This document shows positions 3,266 through 16,868 of a stretch of 16,868 nt of DNA, piece by piece. The notes beneath the pieces were generated by a model. It did no database searches and was not told where the DNA came from. It saw only the letters and a list, made by a program, of their open reading frames with translations. Source of the DNA: Globomyces pollinis-pini (Eukaryota; Chytridiomycota; Chytridiomycetes; Rhizophydiales; Globomycetaceae). The stretch is from the NCBI GenBank assembly GCA_025399215.1, contig MU621345.1:5176-22043 (forward strand), written 5' to 3'. The first letter of the stretch is position 1. Every line of letters begins with the position of its first letter. A program made the translations under genes and the position numbers.

Positions 3266-3772
3266 TTAAGCAAAAATGAACATCAATCCCATTAAAATGA
3301 CTGACACGCGAGAGGTTTGACTTTGTCCATCGTTGGTGAGTACATTATAATCAGATGATTTGGATTCATCATAACCCTTTGGTTTAGTTTCAACATACCC
3401 AGCATTGCTTTGTTCGGAATATCCCTTGTGATCTGGTTGAGGTCCATTATATCCAGTTTGGCCGTAGGTGGTCTCAGTATACCCAGAATGATCAACTTGA
3501 GAAGGTTTTGGAGGTACGATACTGATGGACACGACAGTGGTAGATTCAGGTGATTTGGAAGTAACCACTGGAGCAATTGTTGTAACCGAAGCAATAGTTG
3601 TGGTGGTTTGGGCAATAGTTGTGGTAGCTTGAGCAACAGTTGTTGCAGGAGGTACACTAACGCTCGTGGTAGTTGGGGCCACTGAAGTTGCAGTAGAGGA
3701 TTTCGGACCATGATCAACACCATTGTGTGCCAAAACAGCAGCAGCAAGCAATTGGAAGGTTAAGGAATTCAT
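3266..3772 (-). CDS. Secreted HNGVDH-type, Thr-rich GPI-anchor-like protein (168 aa)
   Basis: The signal peptide MNSLTFQLLAAAVLA would be cleaved to leave HNGVDHG as the mature N-terminus, matching the H-[EN]-G-x-D-H pattern of two neighbours. Residues about 25-85 are Thr/Ser/Val repeats (TTTIAQTTTTIA). Residues about 90-140 hold a second imperfect repeat based on the motif [DH]xxGY (DHSGYTET, DHKGYSEQ, NAGYVET, PKGYDES). The C-terminus is NDGQSQTS followed by a hydrophobic tail, a GPI-type signal. Surface or wall protein of unknown role. The repeat region also leaves a second minus-strand frame open over 3292-3747, judged a composition artefact. Confidence 0.75.
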   Translation of the reverse strand: MNSLTFQLLAAAVLAHNGVDHGPKSSTATSVAPTTTSVSVPPATTVAQATTTIAQTTTTIASVTTIAPVVTSKSPESTTVVSISIVPPKPSQVDHSGYTETTYGQTGYNGPQPDHKGYSEQSNAGYVETKPKGYDESKSSDYNVLTNDGQSQTSRVSVILMGLMFIFA

Positions 3773-4232: not shown

Positions 4233-4664
4233 TTAAACTAAAGTAATGAAAATCAAAGCAGCGAGAGTAGATAAGAAAGTTTCTTTGCTGGCACCGTTAG
4301 CAACCACTCCATATGCGCCGGTTGGTTTTGCGTCATAAACACCTGGGGTAGAGTATCCAGGTGTAGTTGAACCTCCTGTCGTTGTTGTGGTAGTTATTTT
4401 TGGAGCAGCAGGTGCTTGAGGGACAGGAGCTTGAGGAGCAGCTGGAGGAGCAGGTGCCGGTGGAGCTGGAGCTGGAGGAGCAGGAGCCGGTGGAGCTGGA
4501 GCTGGAGGAGCAGGAGCTGGTGGAGCAGGAGCTGGAGGAGCAGGAGCAGGAGGAGCTGGAGCAGGAGGAGCAGGAGCAGGAGGAGCTGGAGCAGGTGCTT
4601 CATGATCATGACCTTCATGAGCAACAGCTAAAGCAACCAAGAGATGAAATACAACAGACACCAT
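4233..4664 (-). CDS. Secreted HEGHDH-type (APAPP)n GPI-anchor-like protein (143 aa)
   Basis: The signal peptide MVSVVFHLLVALAVA is followed by HEGHDHE, again placing His at the predicted mature N-terminus. Next comes an Ala-Pro domain of about eleven APAPP units (residues 23 to about 80), likely an extended rod-like stalk, then a Thr run, a Gly/Tyr/Pro segment (PGYSTPGVYD) and VVANGASKE plus a hydrophobic tail, a good GPI signal with Asn-Gly-Ala. The architecture (metal-binding-like tip, stiff spacer, membrane anchor) would display the His-rich end away from the membrane. This is inference. No enzyme domain is seen. Confidence 0.75.
   Translation of the reverse strand: MVSVVFHLLVALAVAHEGHDHEAPAPAPPAPAPPAPAPPAPAPPAPAPPAPAPPAPAPPAPAPPAPAPPAPAPPAAPQAPVPQAPAAPKITTTTTTGGSTTPGYSTPGVYDAKPTGAYGVVANGASKETFLSTLAALIFITLV
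4437..4598 (-). repeat. 15-bp tandem repeats encoding APAPP
   Basis: On the coding strand the repeat is CCWGCWCCWGCWCCW-like with period 15 nt and variable third positions. Because the period is a multiple of three with no stop trinucleotide, several other frames stay open by chance. It is expected to be length-variable. Confidence 0.9.
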
Positions 4665-6341: not shown

Positions 6342-7389
6342 ATGGCTACCACTGCTGCTCCAAAAGCGTCTTGCGCTCGTCATTTAGGAAATACTCCAAC
6401 AAAAAATCATAACCAACCAAAAGGAAATAATTATCCTCATGATCCTTTAGAAGAATCAGTATATAATTTGATTCCTGAAGAATATATTCCACCTCCAAAA
6501 GAAAAACGATATCGTTCTCAATATGCTGATCAAGCAAGAAAAGAATACGTATCTGATACAAAAAAGACAGCATCTATGGGACCTGCTAAACTTCCAGTTC
6601 CTGCACCTAATGGATTTATGAAAAAAAGAAATGGAGTTCCAAAAGTTGAAAGTAAATTTAATTTGTGAGGTTTAATTTTTTAGGTAACTTCCAATGAATT
6701 CATTAAATTTTTAATAGTTTCCAAAGGGGAACGTGATCGTGTCATACGAAAGGTAAAGATCTATATGAATATTAATTTAACCTATTCATAGGCACCATTA
6801 CCTGAAAAAAACTCTGCTCCAATTAAACCATGTACCAAGAATTTCATTGAACAAAATGCCCTTGATAATATCAATTCCAGTAATTTAAAAAAAAAGAAAT
6901 CGATTTTAATACAATTCTTTAGTGGCCAAACTTGGAAAAGGAAAGAGTCCAATGTATTTGACAAAGAAAGATTATGGTCGTACACCAGATTATTTGCAAA
7001 AAAGAATTCAAGAAATTGAACAAGCAGAACTTCAAATGGCAAATCATCTTGCTTTACAACAAGAATCAAAAGCTCGTGATGATCTTGAAGATCAAGGAAT
7101 TGTTGTTTTACCTGATGAAGAACGTTCAAGAATTTTACAAGGTCTACAAGCTAATTGGGAAAAGTTGAATAAGGATTATCAAAAATTATCACTTACTGTA
7201 GATACAGTACCAAAAATTGCCAGGTAAACTTTTTAATTTATTTAATATTAATATTAGGTATTTTTAATTCATTGGTTAATCTCTATTAGAAAAGTGAACA
7301 TGGAACAACAATTGAAACAGTATGAAGAACTTATTGATAGATTCTCTCATACAAACATTCATGTCAGATTCAACTCAGTTTATGAATAA
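6342..7389 (+). CDS. ENKUR: Enkurin, flagellar/ciliary protein (277 aa, 5 exons)
   Basis: Enkurin is a calmodulin-binding, axoneme-associated protein of motile cilia. Exons: 6342-6651, 6718-6752, 6792-6879, 6923-7223, 7290-7389, which sum to 834 nt (278 codons). Recognised features are an N-terminal YNLIPEEYIPPPKEKRY (family IYNLIP...PP..P.RY), SMGPAKLPVPAPNGFMKK (family MGPAKVEVPSPKDFLKK), NFIEQNAL, and the C-terminal enkurin domain LTKKDYGRTPDYLQKR...LPDEER..ILQGLQANWEKLNKDYQ...DTVPKIARKV. Introns are 66, 39, 43 and 66 nt. Both 66-nt introns contain an internal AG|GT splitting them into intron-sized halves. The first splice junction is the least certain because the linker there is poorly conserved. 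Implies a flagellated life stage. Confidence 0.9.
6652..6717 (+). other. 66-nt enkurin intron made of two abutting GT...AG modules
   Basis: Module 1 is 6652-6683 (GTAAAT...TTTTAG, 32 nt) and module 2 is 6684-6717 (GTAACT...AATAG, 34 nt), joined AG|GT with no base between. Keeping module 2 as exon after removing only module 1 gives a stop (TGA) within five codons. The whole 66 nt must go for the frame to continue. Confidence 0.6.
7224..7289 (+). other. 66-nt enkurin intron made of two abutting GT...AG modules
   Basis: Module 1 is 7224-7257 (GTAAAC...ATTAG, 34 nt) and module 2 is 7258-7289 (GTATTT...ATTAG, 32 nt). Removal of all 66 nt joins KIAR to KVNMEQQ in the conserved enkurin domain. Confidence 0.65.
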
Positions 7390-7471
7390 AAATGATTTTG
7401 TAAAGTTTTATACACGACTTTAATTATTCTTATAAAATTTCCAACAAAGTCTGTATAAAAATCTATGGATA

Positions 7472-10464
7472 CTATTTATTTTGTTTTAATTTCAATTTAA
7501 TAGTTAATGATATGAGTATTAATAAAGTTAAAAATAATCCAACAGATACTGCCAAATCTTTCCAATATGCAGATACATCTAATCCAAACTTTTCCAATAC
7601 CACTGCAGCCGGAAAAGTTACATCAAACCCAGAAATTGTATCCACCAATTTCAATCCTGCAGCATCATTTACTACACAAGCTTCATAAGCATATTTGAAA
7701 AATGAGAGATATTGAATCCATCTTAAAGTAATTGGAATTTGAACTTGATTGATTAAAATCCCTGCGAAAAGCATTTGAAATAATGTGGTAATGGATGCAA
7801 CTAGAATAGCTGTTGCATTATCTCGAATGAGACATCCAATCATTAAACAGAAAAGTCCACTGTTGGCGGAGAAAATTACCATAATTCCAAGGAATTTAAA
7901 GAAAGTAGTTTGATCTATAGAATATCCAATCAAATAATATGCTATAGAACACATAATGGTAGATGGCAAAACACGTAATGGGATCAAATCAAATAAAACC
8001 TATTTCATAAGCATAATGGGGTTATTACTTTAGATACAAAGTAAGGAAAGAATCCATAAAATCCATTTGATCGTTCACGAACAAACAAAACCAAGTCCGC
8101 TTGTAAACTAGATATAGCACTGAGCCCCGAAAACGCAATAAGTGATTGTAAAAAGAATATAGAACCCAGTCGGTTTTGGATACCAGCCAAAGAAGAATCA
8201 ACCTTCAAGTATAAAAACCCAATAAACAATCCTAATGAAACCGATATTATAACTAGTATTAATACAATCGAAATTGAATACCATGTGAGATAAAAATTAA
8301 AGGGTTTCGATATAAGGTTTTCCAAGACCTACCCAACACTTTTTGTAATTGGGTCAATGAAGATGCATATGAAAATCGAATACTGTGATCATCAAGTATT
8401 CCATTTTCATCAGTCTGACCAACCAACATTGAATTCTTTCGTCCACTAGGGGTGATTGCCTCTTTTGGACTCATTTCTGTTCTACCCTTTTCACACGCAT
8501 AGTTCAATACATGATCTGCTATATGTGTTTTAGGTGGACATGGGGATCCTTTAGAGACGCAGAATTCCTCTACAGATGTGGATGACCCGAAATAAATTGG
8601 GATACCATCAGACAATAACAATAGTTTATCGAATAAAGAGAAAATGGTAGAATTAGGTTGATGAATAGTAAAAATGATCTACAATAAATGATTAAACAAT
8701 TTACTGTTTTCTTGGATTCTTTAGCCAAATTTGAGAGTGTTTGGATAACTTGCAATGCATTATATGAATCTAAACCACTGGTAGGCTCATCTAAAAACAA
8801 GATAGATGGATTCGTGACTAATTCAATACCAATTGAAAGTCTTCGTTTTTCACCTCCACTAATACCACGATCGAGAGTGTTCCCAATCCTGCTATCAGCA
8901 ACATGTGCAAGTCCTAATTGTGTGAGCACAAGTTGAACACGTTCTGATTTTTGTTGCACACTCATTGATTCGGGTAATCGTAATTGTGCACTAAATTCCA
9001 ATATTTCTCGTACTGTTAAACAAGATAAATGTATATCTTCTTGATCAACATATCCAGCTATATTTTGAAATGGAAATGCATTGTCAATTTTTTTCCCGTT
9101 TAGTTTAATTGATCCCATTACCACACCCTTCTTTTCCTTGTTGGCTAATATATCCAAACAAGTAGATTTTCCTGATCCACTTGGGCCCATTATCGCCAAC
9201 AGCTCACCTGGATGAGCTGTACCACTGATTCCAGTCACTATCGTCTTTCCATTCGCAAAATATGAAATATCTTGGAATTCATAAAGTATACCTGGTTGAT
9301 CAATTGGGATAGGTAACTTTCTTCGTTGATTTCTTTGATATAACCCCCAAAGAAAAGTAAAAAATATCAAACCAAGGAATCCAAAGACTACAGAGACAAT
9401 AGCCATACCTAATGAACCATATCCCGGAACCTTGTAACAAATCAATTTAAAGTTATAAATACCAAATCATCTGAAGTTGTAGGTCTGGAATATTCGTCTA
9501 CACATTCTCCAAATCGACAATTTGGTAAAGTGACACCTTGAGAAAAGATATTGGACAAAAATTCAACTAGATATTTAATAAATACAATATACATCGCAGG
9601 TTGCAGTTGCTTTTCATATCGCATTTAATAGATGAATCACCTTTGGCACCATTGATGACTTTGGTCAAATCAATCAAGCCAGGACTGGTATTAAACGGAT
9701 TGGATTACCTACACATAACTGCACCTTTATTACAGTTACAAGATAATGAAGAGCATTTCCAAGAAGTCCCATTATCTAACATTTAATCAATTTAATTGTA
9801 CTATTGAAAGTTTGTGAACAATCAGTTGCATTACAAGTAAACTGTGGACTTTCCTTCAACCATACTAATGATTATCATATGATAATTGAATTACAAGTTG
9901 CAAAAGCACTTTTAGTTTGAATATTGCGCTCAAATGTTACTCGTCCTTTTTCAGCAAATGCAAATGTTAACAGTGGTTCTATTCGTGTAAGAAATGTTGA
10001 ATCTTACCAGATACATCGCACGATGTCATATGCTTTGATTTCCAAACGACTGGACTTTGGTTACATATATTTCTGGCACCTTAATCCATAAATAAAAGCA
10101 TCATACCTAAAGGTGCACTATAATTAGTAAACATCAAAAATAATATTACCCAGGCAGAAATCGACACACATCATCATTAGTACATACATTACAATGTACA
10201 CCAGTGAATCCATCACCACATTGACATTGGTCTTTCAAGTTACTAATTGGTCGATTGATTGGAGTGTCTGATAATTTTCCACATACTACACATTGGTAAG
10301 AATATATTGAAGGATATACATGGTTTAGTGCAATCTAAATCTCCAAATCCATCCAAACATTGACAAACACCAAAGTTACATTTTCCAAGATTATCACAAC
10401 CCTATTGAATTGGATTCCATCATCATACCGTTGCTCTGCAATCAAAGCATGATGTTTTATTCAT
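7472..10464 (-). CDS. Adp1-like ABCG half-transporter with Cys-rich/EGF N-terminal domain (about 873 aa, 14 exons)
   Basis: ATP-driven membrane exporter or permease of the White/ABCG family. Substrate unknown. Exons (high to low): 10464-10429, 10401-10320, 10285-10150, 10117-10107, 10079-10008, 9978-9895, 9864-9802, 9775-9709, 9684-9593, 9566-9463, 9430-8705, 8678-8282, 8252-8029, 7999-7472. Sum is 2622 nt, and all 13 introns are 24-34 nt GTA...AG. Residues about 1-245 form a Cys-rich extracellular part with EGF-like cores (GKCNFGVCQCLDGFG, CQCGDGFTGVHCNVC). One membrane segment follows (about 257-278), then the ATPase: Walker A GPSGSGKST (331-339), ISGGEKRR (439-446), Walker B ILFLDEPTSGLD (459-470), H-loop His497. 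A C-terminal membrane domain contains LGLFIGFLYLKVDSSLAG, VLFDLIPLRVLP and NDAAGLK. The 5' end is uncertain: the proposed Met at 10464 gives no signal peptide although the next domain should be extracytoplasmic. Confidence 0.88.
10107..10117 (-). other. 11-nt microexon of the ABC transporter gene
   Basis: TGCACCTTTAG lies between a 32-nt intron (10118-10149, with TACTAAT near its 3' end) and a 27-nt intron (10080-10106). It encodes the middle of RFLPG-APLG-ARNIC. Skipping it would shift the frame. Including it makes the full 14-exon reading frame sum to a multiple of three. Confidence 0.75.
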
Positions 10465-10725: not shown

Positions 10726-11915
10726 CTATTGAGCAGTCAAGAATATTGACGCCATTATCAAATAGATGGAAGTACCAATAAGGTCCTAATGTAAATAATA
10801 AAGAAATACTTGAAATGCTGTTTCGAACGGCCCAGCCATCTATTTGTCAATAAATAATCATTACAACAGCCGGATCGACATTCAAACTTCGGAATGTTAA
10901 TGGGCCCAAACTTCCAAGCATTCCCGCCATCGTAGAATTCAATAATATGCTAGAAAATGTGAATATGATAATGATACCTAAAGCCGGTTGTAAACGCAAA
11001 GGCTAAATTCCATGACCAACCCCAAGCAACGAGAAAAATCATAGACCCAGCTATAAATGCAATCACTTTAATCAATTATAGAATATTAGATACCTAAATG
11101 TTATTGAATTGAATACTATACCTAAGAGAATCAGCCTCCATAATGGATTAACCTTAGAGTCAGAAATGAAAATGGAAAAACCTAGAAAATCAGGGATTAA
11201 ATTATACCTAAAGGATCAGTGATCATAGTAATAAACCTAACGAAGTGGCAAATTCCTTTCTCAAAACGCGAAAGAAACCTCTTGAATCCACTTTGGCATG
11301 TCCAGTGGCGAGAGCTCTTAGAGTAGCAGTAGAAGACTGTAATCCAACATTACCTATTCTATCAAATATATACTTTAGATACCAGCAATAGCGGATAGAA
11401 TAGGCAAAAATGAAGTCATGAGTATGTGAGATTGGATTAAGTGTTGTTTTTCTGCAATTACAAAACCGACAATGAGTTCTAGAAGTAAAGTAGCTAAAAT
11501 TGCAGGACATCTATTTATTGCAAGTTTCCAAAACGGCATTCTGCTAGTGAGAATTGAAGATAATACTTTTGCATTGTATAAGCATGATTATTATTATCTC
11601 TTAGATAATCAATACGAGCTAGAATAAAGTGATTTAATTCTTCAGGGTTTGAAGTATTTGATAATTCTAATAAGAATTGCATTTCTGGTAATTTATGAAT
11701 ATTATGATTTAGTAAATCTAAAGAATCTAGAGAAGATCTACGATTGACTGAATGTATTAGTATGATAAAATACCTAAAATTTAATATGAGGTTAATTACC
11801 TAATGTCAAGATACATTAATTACCTAACAAATTAAAAATCCAATTACATTTTTACCATCCACTAATTTTTAATTCAAAAAAATTTACATTCAATCAATTC
11901 CTCACTGTCATCCAT
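10726..11915 (-). CDS. MgtE/SLC41-type Mg2+ transporter, membrane domain only (about 248 aa)
   Basis: Predicted divalent-cation (Mg2+) channel/transporter. Proposed exons: 11915-11888, 11747-11567, 11540-11383, 11353-11237, 11065-10978, 10949-10865, 10839-10810, 10785-10726, which sum to 747 nt. Recognised family signatures: PFWKLAINRCPAIL, MTSFLPILSAIAGNVGLQSS, TLRALATGHAK, RVLRKEFATSL, NSTMAGMLGSLGPLTF, LNVDPAVMAGPFETAFQD. There is no CBS or MgtE-N domain. A roughly 70-residue polar N-terminal part precedes the membrane domain. The splice at 11541-11566 has a TAGCAG double acceptor (N-R or K). Two intervening blocks (11748-11887 and 11066-11236) are arrays of intron-sized modules. A variant keeping 11122-11181 would add 20 residues in frame. 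The extreme N-terminus is the least certain part. Confidence 0.82.
11066..11236 (-). other. Six abutting intron-like GT...AG modules in the MgtE gene
   Basis: Reading down the minus strand: 11236-11208 (29 nt), 11207-11182 (26), 11181-11153 (29), 11152-11122 (31), 11121-11094 (28), 11093-11066 (28). Every internal boundary is AG|GT with no base between, and all six lengths match single introns elsewhere in the window. Removing all 171 nt preserves frame and joins RKEFATSL to VIAFIAGSM, the spacing expected for the family. Alternative: modules 3 and 4 (60 nt, open in frame) are an exon between two double introns. The first, third and fourth modules begin GTT rather than GTA. Confidence 0.6.
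11748..11887 (-). other. 5' intron array of the MgtE gene, five modules and a possible 6-nt microexon
   Basis: Module A 11887-11862 (26 nt), then six bases TGGATG (11861-11856), then four directly abutting modules: 11855-11824 (32 nt), 11823-11800 (24), 11799-11774 (26), 11773-11748 (26). Boundaries are AG|GT. The last module carries ATACTAATAC, a good branch-site-like word. TGGATG can be kept or dropped without changing frame. Confidence 0.55.
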
Positions 11916-15786: not shown

Positions 15787-15943
15787 CAATATCTTATCCA
15801 AATTTTTCTATTTCATTCAAATAAATATTCATTTTTTAACCAACAACTCCAATGGAGGTCCGGTATCCAACGCCTTTAAAGTTACCGTTTGGCGTTAAAA
15901 CAAAATGATTGAAAGGATACTTGATTATATTCAGAGTAGACTT
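15787..15943. other. Convergent 3' intergenic region
   Basis: 157 bp between the stops of the 973-aa gene and the DM9-like gene. AAATAAATATTC just after the first stop could act in polyadenylation. Confidence 0.4.
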
Positions 15944-16868
15944 TTAATAAGAATACACCAAGACCATCATCATATTGCCAGGTTGAGCCCATCGAGGTAA
16001 ACCTTCTAATTGATATGATTGGTAACTAAAGTATCCCAAATGCGTATCAGTTTCAATTATCTCACCACTATCAGTAGCTCTGTCACATTCTCCCCTTCCC
16101 ATATATAATGAAGTCGTATTGCTATTTCCACCAAATACCAATCGTTTTCCGTCCAAAGTGTGATTGGAAATTACAAATGGTCCGTTGTTTTGTAAAGAAT
16201 GCCAACTGACAGCTTTAGAGTCACCCACCAAGACTTCATAGTCTTTCGATTCTTTATTTTCGTAATCAGTATTAAACTTGAAAACGCCATTCATTACTTC
16301 ACCAATCAAAACACAAGACTTTCCATAGTAATTGCTCTTTTTTCAGTATTAGTTTTCTTCTTACCTCATCATAAGTACGTCCTGCATAAACAGTTGTTCC
16401 ATCAGCTTTTGTGAACATGGGAATGGCATTTGTTGGGATTTTGTCATCAACCACTGGAACCTGACTCTATTAGTCAACTCATATTACCCAATACACCGAA
16501 GGTGGTGATCGTCCCTCCGCCTGAATACCACCAAGTCGCTTTGCTTGAAAATCTGCCGCCATTTTCCAAGATGCGAGGTTCTGATGATGAACATTGACAA
16601 AACCTAACCATTCGTCCCAAGTAGACTCAATCGGTTGGAAACTTCCAGTAAGCATCTGCTGACCTGGATTTTCAATAATCCAACTGCCATCCACAGTGAC
16701 TGGTGCAATACTATTAGTCCAAGCCTCATATTTTGGCAGTAACCATTTCTGATTGAACATCATTTCGGTCATATCAGATATCCATAAGAAATGGTTACTC
16801 AATTTTTCCACATTTTCATAATCTTCAATACGAAACAGGTTTTCGGTATATTCGTCTGCTTCTTCCCA
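15944..16868 (-). CDS. DM9/DUF3421-like protein, partial at its 5' end
   Basis: The frame is open to the window edge, so the start is missing. Exons 16868-16488, 16460-16365, 16336-15944, with introns of 27 and 28 nt that contain GACTAATAG and AACTAATAC as branch-like words. Visible sequence is 290 residues. The first 127 are Trp/Glu-rich (SWKMAADFQAKRLGG) and unassigned. The rest resembles a DM9 repeat: IPTNAIPMFTKADGTTVYAGR, then SNYYGKSCVLIGEV, then KDYEVLVGDSKAVSW. A second degenerate copy follows (GPFVISNHTLDGKRL, LYMGRGECDR, GYFSYQSYQLEG). DM9 domains are sugar-binding in some animal proteins. The role here is unknown, and the family call rests on motif order only. An alternative acceptor for the second intron (16319) would drop six residues. 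Confidence 0.6.

Follow-up and report, generated by a model that had tools for sequence, protein, structure and literature searches.

In Globomyces pollinis-pini, an intervening sequence of 171 nt within an MgtE-like magnesium transporter gene quite probably consists of six whole minimal spliceosomal introns joined by zero-length exons, one of many such arrays in this genome. In the sequence, the gap is tiled exactly, the signals of its units fall within the range of ordinary single introns of the same genome, and coding sequence is absent from it. The array lies in a window of 16,868 nt (the whole stretch of DNA analyzed), which is part of contig C256 of an 18.5-Mb genome in 459 contigs; on that contig, the stretch 5′ of the window (C256:1–5175, counted on the contig) is all N.

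The host gene (10726–11915, minus strand) comprises nine exons and, once spliced, encodes 251 aa matching Pfam MgtE with 98.3 bits over profile positions 1–124 of 125. Two of its eight intron sites are arrays, and its single introns measure 26, 23 (or 26), 29, 28, 25 and 24 nt. A tandem acceptor, TAGCAG, is seen at 11541–11566 (minus strand): its first AG gives the 23-nt intron of our initial gene model, and a 26-nt intron ending at the second AG agrees with the annotated protein. The model is least sure for exon 1 (28 nt) and exon 2 (6 nt). The closest known protein is BC833DRAFT_603500 from G. pollinis-pini itself (99% over 87% of the query), the annotated form of which begins later than our model, within exon 3.

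The exon located 5′ of the six-unit array (11237–11353, minus strand) ends in ...RKEFATSL in phase 1, and the exon located 3′ of it (10978–11065, minus strand) starts with VIAFIAGSM. Between them, from 11236 down to 11066 on the minus strand, the 171 nt resolve without remainder into GT...AG modules of 29, 26, 29, 31, 28 and 28 nt, every junction between modules being AG|GT. In the direction of transcription these are unit 1 (11208–11236, 29 nt, GTTTAT..CTGATCCTTTAG), unit 2 (11182–11207, 26 nt, GTATAA..CTGATTTTCTAG), unit 3 (11153–11181, 29 nt, GTTTTT..CTGACTCTAAG, with a weak donor), unit 4 (11122–11152, 31 nt, GTTAAT..CTGATTCTCTTAG, with the lowest score of the six), unit 5 (11094–11121, 28 nt, GTATAG..AATAACATTTAG) and unit 6 (11066–11093, 28 nt, GTATCT..TTGATTAAAG), all on the minus strand. 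When the 171 nt were shuffled with dinucleotides preserved and ends fixed, none of 4000 shuffles could be tiled completely with GT..AG units of 22–38 nt. All six units carry the signs of U2-type minimal introns (GT, AG, a typical length of 26–31 nt and a score in range), and five of them hold a branch-like YTNAY at the expected place, the exception being unit 5, where the motif is absent in the stretch searched. Scored with a model trained on 358 predicted single introns of 22–38 nt from the same genome, units 1 to 6 fell at the 55th, 45th, 19th, 12th, 48th and 51st percentile of single introns, units 3 and 4, both with GTT donors, being the weakest.

To judge these units we relied on the ordinary introns of the genome, obtained with a gene finder whose training set was the long open frames of 192 kb and whose later runs covered 272 kb (of which ∼6 kb are N); in the later and tiling-blind runs a gene model had to score above 20 to be kept, and cut-offs of 20 and 25 were used in the earlier ones. 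Intron density is high, with 645 sites in the 178.5 kb predicted to be coding, and the introns are tiny: of 623 sites with a single module, 593 do not exceed 39 nt, with a range of 23–39 nt and a mode of 28. Among 557 single introns the donor is GTA in 497 and the acceptor TAG in 412, and the branch A of YTNAY lies mostly 7–9 nt before the exon. The initial annotation had described the exact tiling of the gap with AG|GT junctions and had credited each module with full intron length; both descriptions are borne out by these comparisons, and the strand, which it left unnamed, is minus.

The annotated BC833DRAFT_603500 reads ...RKEFATSLVIAFIAG... across the junction, leaving out exactly 171 nt, and an insert at SL|V is missing from all 21 aligned homologues that span it (31 proteins were found and 23 aligned; P0001, which is the same gene, and P0020, in which the stretch is absent, were left out). 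A stop codon interrupts 20 of the 21 non-empty combinations in which modules are retained in frame, the sole open one being modules 3 and 4 together (60 nt), whose retention lowers the Pfam MgtE score from 98.3 to 80.6 bits. Since homologues carry no insert, the annotated protein omits the stretch and modules 3 and 4 cost 17.7 bits, intron most likely fills the entire gap, and a coding role for it is very improbable. A narrower version, in which modules 3 and 4 form a 60-nt exon, constitutive or alternative, between two two-unit introns, draws on their being the only stop-free pair, on their GTT donors and on intron scores that are the lowest of the six, and on two predicted pairs elsewhere in the sample that held what we take, from their open frames and motifs, to be a real exon instead of a unit. 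Such an exon would, however, place 20 aa into a hydrophobic, probably membrane-spanning stretch, at the cost in Pfam score given above, in a position where neither the homologues nor the annotated protein have them, and both modules contain CTGAY before their AG; we consider it highly improbable.

Further arrays occur in the window. The same MgtE-like gene holds a second one, of 32, 24, 26 and 26 nt (11824–11855, 11800–11823, 11774–11799 and 11748–11773, minus strand), in which the start of unit 1 hinges on the preceding 6-nt exon; 5 of 4000 shuffles tile, none of them reaching its score, and none of its three in-frame retained combinations is open. An enkurin gene (6342–7389, plus strand; Pfam Enkurin, 86.8 bits) contains two two-unit arrays, one of 32 and 34 nt (6652–6717, plus strand), followed by an exon of just 35 nt and with its junction outside the Pfam match, and one of 34 and 32 nt (7224–7289, plus strand). 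In an ABCG-type half transporter gene (7471–10464, minus strand; Pfam ABC_tran and ABC2_membrane), none of the 13 introns (24–34 nt) is an array; the N-terminal part of its product is cysteine-rich and EGF-like by eye, with no Pfam hit there. The window also encodes a DM9 repeat domain protein (15943–16772, minus strand; Pfam, 38.6 bits) and, at 2515–2904, 3266–3772 and 4233–4664 on the minus strand, three adjacent small proteins that look secreted by eye, each with a hydrophobic start, AHEGHDH or AHNGVDHG, a low-complexity body rich in T, P and A and a hydrophobic tail. These three are perhaps a local family of metal-binding, membrane-anchored proteins.

Elsewhere in the genome, arrays were found at sites where protein conservation fixes the ends of the exons independently of any splice signal. 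Five units (138 nt) interrupt a CLK/LAMMER kinase gene at FLHDL|GLIHTDLKPEN, twelve (365 nt) a MARK/SNF1-type kinase gene at the DFG motif (KIT|DFGLSN), and ten (285 nt) a gene for a PHYHD1-like dioxygenase at IFK|QPDIGGEV; the alignments with CLK2, MARK3 and PHYHD1, respectively, show no gap there. The PHYHD1-like array is counted as ten because an eleventh, first module turned out to be coding (VLQSMLIFK). The twelve-unit array lies within 3000–4700 of contig C102 and the ten-unit one within 41600–42800 of contig C12. Two units lie at VGE|AGE in the gene for a Rieske protein, again at a point where the protein alignment is gapless, and seven at residue 64 of a fragment with an MCM P-loop match spanning 58 to 228. 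The loci with twelve, ten and seven units were chosen via hits to three TAGGTA sites, a motif that bounds only six, five and four of their units, respectively; the choice of loci exerted no selection on the rest. For two further seven-unit loci (L023 and L026) no convincing protein was obtained, and in the CLK search no Globomyces protein stood among the best 120 of 4259 matches. Gapless arrays of whole minimal introns, from 2 to 12 units, are a real and recurrent architecture.

The excess of abutting introns is also evident genome-wide. In the 272 kb, counted with the window and its own arrays included, intron-like modules abut exactly (a gap of 0) 41 times, compared to 2–12 times (mean 6.2) for each gap of 1–15 nt. 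Abutting chains in the same 272 kb number 24 pairs and five of three to six units, as against four pairs and none longer as the mean of three Markov controls. A genome-wide search for TAGGTA triplets spaced by 16–32 nt gave 105 hits, and the reversed pattern, despite its commoner hexamer, 13. For two sites at gaps of 17–33 nt the corresponding counts are 391 and 319, the latter being nearly as high because the reversed hexamer is ∼2.5 times commoner than TAGGTA in the sample (225 versus 88), so that this excess is visible only after correction for hexamer frequency or against wider spacing (74 at gaps of 80–96 nt, some of these within arrays). Raw AGGT spacing, taken without any module model, shows a mild excess, with 28–30 per 5-nt bin at 20–34 nt versus 9–18 at 50 nt and beyond. 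Roughly extrapolated, the excess junctions amount to ∼1,800–2,400 in the genome, with or without the window.

The arrays were found through the same signals whose upkeep is argued here, except for the homology-bounded gaps and for a tiling-blind run in which chains were forbidden, long introns were given a flat prior and exons of at least 40 nt were required on both sides. In that run, 7 of 15 introns of 41–125 nt could be tiled, compared to 0.5 expected from shuffles (5 of 8 at 41–74 nt versus 0.48 expected, with 5 of 6 at 44–74 nt, and 2 of 7 at 75–125 nt versus 0.02 expected), so the genome-wide spacing comparison that the initial annotation had in mind came out in its favor. None of ten introns of 126–200 nt tiled; the run missed the known MgtE (171 nt), CLK (138 nt) and C2+ (92 nt) arrays, and its longest introns are in part likely gene fusions. 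The abutment excess, the shuffles and the tiling-blind run each show AG|GT sites within longer intervening sequences exceeding chance, and rule out chance AGGT spacing as their source. Individual chains call for more caution: of the 22 reported by the tiling-aware run, for which the chain penalty of the gene finder had been reset (too harsh a setting loses the MgtE array), at least three are wrong. Chain C3+ 53722 is an artefact, and in C3- 2087 (aldehyde dehydrogenase) and C3- 5164 (a kinase, VILYVLTCGK) the first unit is really coding, with open frames, judged by motifs that we presume to be diagnostic of these proteins. An open reading remains for the pairs C1+ 52048 and C3+ 72176, and one open retained combination for unit 2 of the CLK array.

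Long introns that cannot be tiled form a separate group. A 75-nt intron in a CDC10-type septin gene and a 179-nt intron in an ethanolamine kinase gene have no AGGT inside, and protein alignments span both junctions, gap-free at the junction itself and with small gaps a few residues off. Untiled introns of 44–74 nt are missing from the tiling-aware gene models of the 272 kb, and one of 57 nt was predicted in the tiling-blind run. The strong donors GTAAGT and GTATGT, which begin 33 of the 557 single introns and 1 of 65 array units, are present in 5 of 8 hand-picked predicted untiled long introns and in 6 of the complete set of 14 untiled introns predicted between 75 and 180 nt. Some apparent long untiled introns (C3- 1965 and C3- 1012) concealed exons, recognized by what we take to be aldehyde dehydrogenase motifs. 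The first gene model, built without chains, had 25 introns of at least 42 nt, most of which we judge to be gene fusions or doubtful. At about 7957–8035 of L034 (minus strand; C3- 1965–2044), an aldehyde dehydrogenase gene contains by eye a probable 28-nt GC–AG intron, a hint that GC donors may be in use as well in this genome.

With respect to the mode of removal, the units are probably spliced singly through their AG|GT junctions, by serial ordinary splicing. Taking out one unit rejoins its neighbors at a complete AG|GT, so that any unit could be cut out first and the others could follow in whatever order before the exons are finally ligated. Across the ten long arrays scored, the branch motif is found in 34 of 45 inner units and 6 of 10 last units, compared to 452 of 557 single introns, and the median scores are 3.05 for inner units, 2.01 for last units, 3.69 for single introns (n = 557) and −4.59 for any GT..AG; inner units score lower than single introns with P = 0.06. 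That units almost without resemblance to one another nevertheless keep their ends, their length and mostly their branch motif favors the stepwise route, and recursive removal at AG|GT, one of the options raised by the initial annotation, is the best-supported of the proposed mechanisms. A strong ratchet donor is not part of it: with GTAAGT or GTATGT so rare at the start of array units, the recursive-splicing consensus is not matched.

The main competing account of the same gap is that the 171 nt leave as a single intron in one step and that past intron duplication has left behind internal AG|GT sites without function. In its favor, the 171 nt are simply missing from the annotated protein; the untiled 75- and 179-nt introns imply a spliceosome able to bridge such lengths, and the scores of inner units lie slightly under those of single introns. 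Relics should nonetheless lose their boundaries, lengths and branch motifs, all of which persist in many arrays whose units are near background similarity. Untiled long introns also more often have strong donors, which are absent from the array as they are from most single introns: GTTTAT, with which the array opens, does not belong to the type found in about half of them, and introns of 44–74 nt tiled in five of six cases even when tiling was not modeled. We therefore regard one-step removal as unlikely.

The same untiled introns bear on the proposal, also made in the initial annotation, that the splicing machinery cannot bridge more than ∼35–40 nt and that short units are needed to make up any longer intron. 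The length distribution of single-module sites speaks for such a limit, as does the lack of untiled introns of 44–74 nt in the tiling-aware models. The alignment-supported, AGGT-free introns of 75 and 179 nt contradict it in its strict form, as would the untiled 57-nt prediction of the tiling-blind run, and it has very little probability; a weaker form, that introns with weak donors cannot be long, may still hold. Repeated insertion of introners, mobile intron-like elements, at one AG|GT point had likewise been an option at the outset. Arrays would be expected if new introns favored AG|GT targets, and GT does start the exon after a single intron in 75 of 557 cases, compared to 4.8% of coding dinucleotides. 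No clear family of look-alikes emerged, however, from the 593 single introns of the 272-kb sample (24 pairs above the similarity cut-off, compared to 13 after a single shuffling), and such likeness as there is sits between neighbors within arrays and fades with distance, as duplication predicts, which makes this route distinctly improbable as well.

The relationships among units point instead to tandem duplication of whole introns followed by drift, the most likely origin of the arrays. Over 11 arrays, with unit ends stripped, mean similarity falls from 0.278 between adjacent units to 0.214 and 0.203 at distances of two and three and to 0.148, 0.170 and 0.116 at distances of four to six, compared to 0.131 between arrays; neighbors being most alike and likeness fading with distance is what supports duplication. 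Another 56 neighbor pairs, taken from the three-site TAGGTA hits, average 0.296 versus 0.155 for unrelated pairs, with 14 of these 56 adjacent pairs above the 99th percentile of unrelated ones, and one array contains two identical 28-nt units. The support holds for arrays pooled and not array by array: kinship among an array's own units reaches P < 0.05 in 5 of 11, and is not seen in the long arrays L022, L023 and L024 (P of 0.68–0.91). For the six-unit MgtE array, mean unit similarity is 0.23 (P = 0.024, weak), and CTGAY, a motif picked after looking, occurs in four of the six units versus 21 of 592 single introns. The initial annotation had seen no obvious copies among the modules, which is right by eye, with weak kinship nonetheless measurable; its conclusion that tandem duplication does not explain them is at odds with neighbors that are significantly alike and sometimes identical. 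As a side observation, four near-identical stretches at C68:55194–60634, 1.5–2.2 kb apart and sharing a TAGGTATTCAT site, are probably tandem gene copies. Duplication of exon segments (the Rogers model) is not supported as a source of single introns: in the 557 compared, intron ends match flanking exon ends at 3.65 and 3.92 of 12 positions, as against 3.58 and 3.83 in shuffled pairings, which lie 1.2 and 1.7 SD lower, so that the likeness is not significant.

Under this duplication model, the segment from one AG|GT to the next, exactly one intron, would be duplicated in tandem by slippage or unequal exchange, an event that would be silent in the mRNA because each copy has its own donor, branch site and acceptor. 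The units would then diverge, with selection keeping the splice signals of each if, as we propose, every unit is recognized by itself. A broader and more tentative reading, to which we give somewhat less than an even chance, is that intron length in this lineage grows in quanta: a size-gauged, weak-signal mode at ∼23–39 nt would coexist with a second one serving long introns, many of which have strong donors, the lengths between would be reached almost only by adding units excised in turn, and the arrays would act as splicing-neutral minisatellites. Were this the case, perhaps some two thousand junctions would provide a natural assay of the rate of intron duplication and of the demands of the spliceosome. 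How introns originate and lengthen is a long-standing open question, and near-identical, half-diverged and fully diverged tandem introns coexist here in one genome, several of them inside conserved genes, by which the ends of the exons are fixed, and this allows drift, duplication and the selection acting on splice signals to be followed directly. Should the units indeed leave singly, up to a dozen splicing reactions may take place at one point of an mRNA, and recursive splicing would be a routine outcome of duplicating tiny introns as well as a device of large ones.

Several known systems share features with these arrays. The initial annotation knew of no described six-unit array of this sort, and among the matches listed from the open-access literature on recursive, twin, tandem and ultra-short introns, in the portions of these sources that were available, we likewise found no gapless array of whole minimal introns described; related arrangements have nonetheless been published, namely the AGGT array of UBC and a 24-bp repeat of fission yeast. 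In the human polyubiquitin gene UBC, an AGGT array of dual-specific splice sites is described, with repeat expansion tied to splicing, and in VCX3A an additional intron copy occurs as a polymorphism (PMC10809524). The Globomyces arrays share with UBC the row of AGGT sites at repeat-unit spacing; unlike its coding ubiquitin monomers and their stochastic splicing, the Globomyces units are minimal introns that do not code, have mostly diverged and are spread over many loci. Tandem genomic duplication of AGGT segments, as in ATP2A1 and in fission yeast, yields GT..AG units, and in fission yeast SPOG_01682 an intron extends across four copies of the 24-bp AGGT repeat (PMC4974935). Those systems copy exon sequence into an intron, whereas the Globomyces arrays appear to copy whole introns.

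Fungal stwintrons, in which consecutive splicing reactions remove one intervening sequence (PMC5639578, PMC9024468), resemble the serial reactions proposed here for Globomyces. As far as these accounts describe it, however, a stwintron has one intron inside the donor, branch or acceptor element of another, and the Globomyces units abut at complete AG|GT junctions with none interrupted, which rules out stwintron identity for the MgtE array. In size, the units are similarly tiny to the ultra-short introns of ∼25 bp reported in Paramecium and others (PMC5014332). Recursive splicing with zero-length exons in Drosophila and vertebrates is described for large introns with the consensus (y)nncag|gtaagt (PMC2773006); as in the Globomyces arrays, AG|GT serves there as acceptor and then as donor, and the intervening sequence leaves piecewise. 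Compared to that account of large introns, the Globomyces units have weak signals, measure ∼23–36 nt in the ten long arrays scored and number up to 12, and they resemble duplicated whole introns. Overall, the Globomyces arrays are not a separate new kind and extend two known ones, recursive splicing and AGGT duplication.
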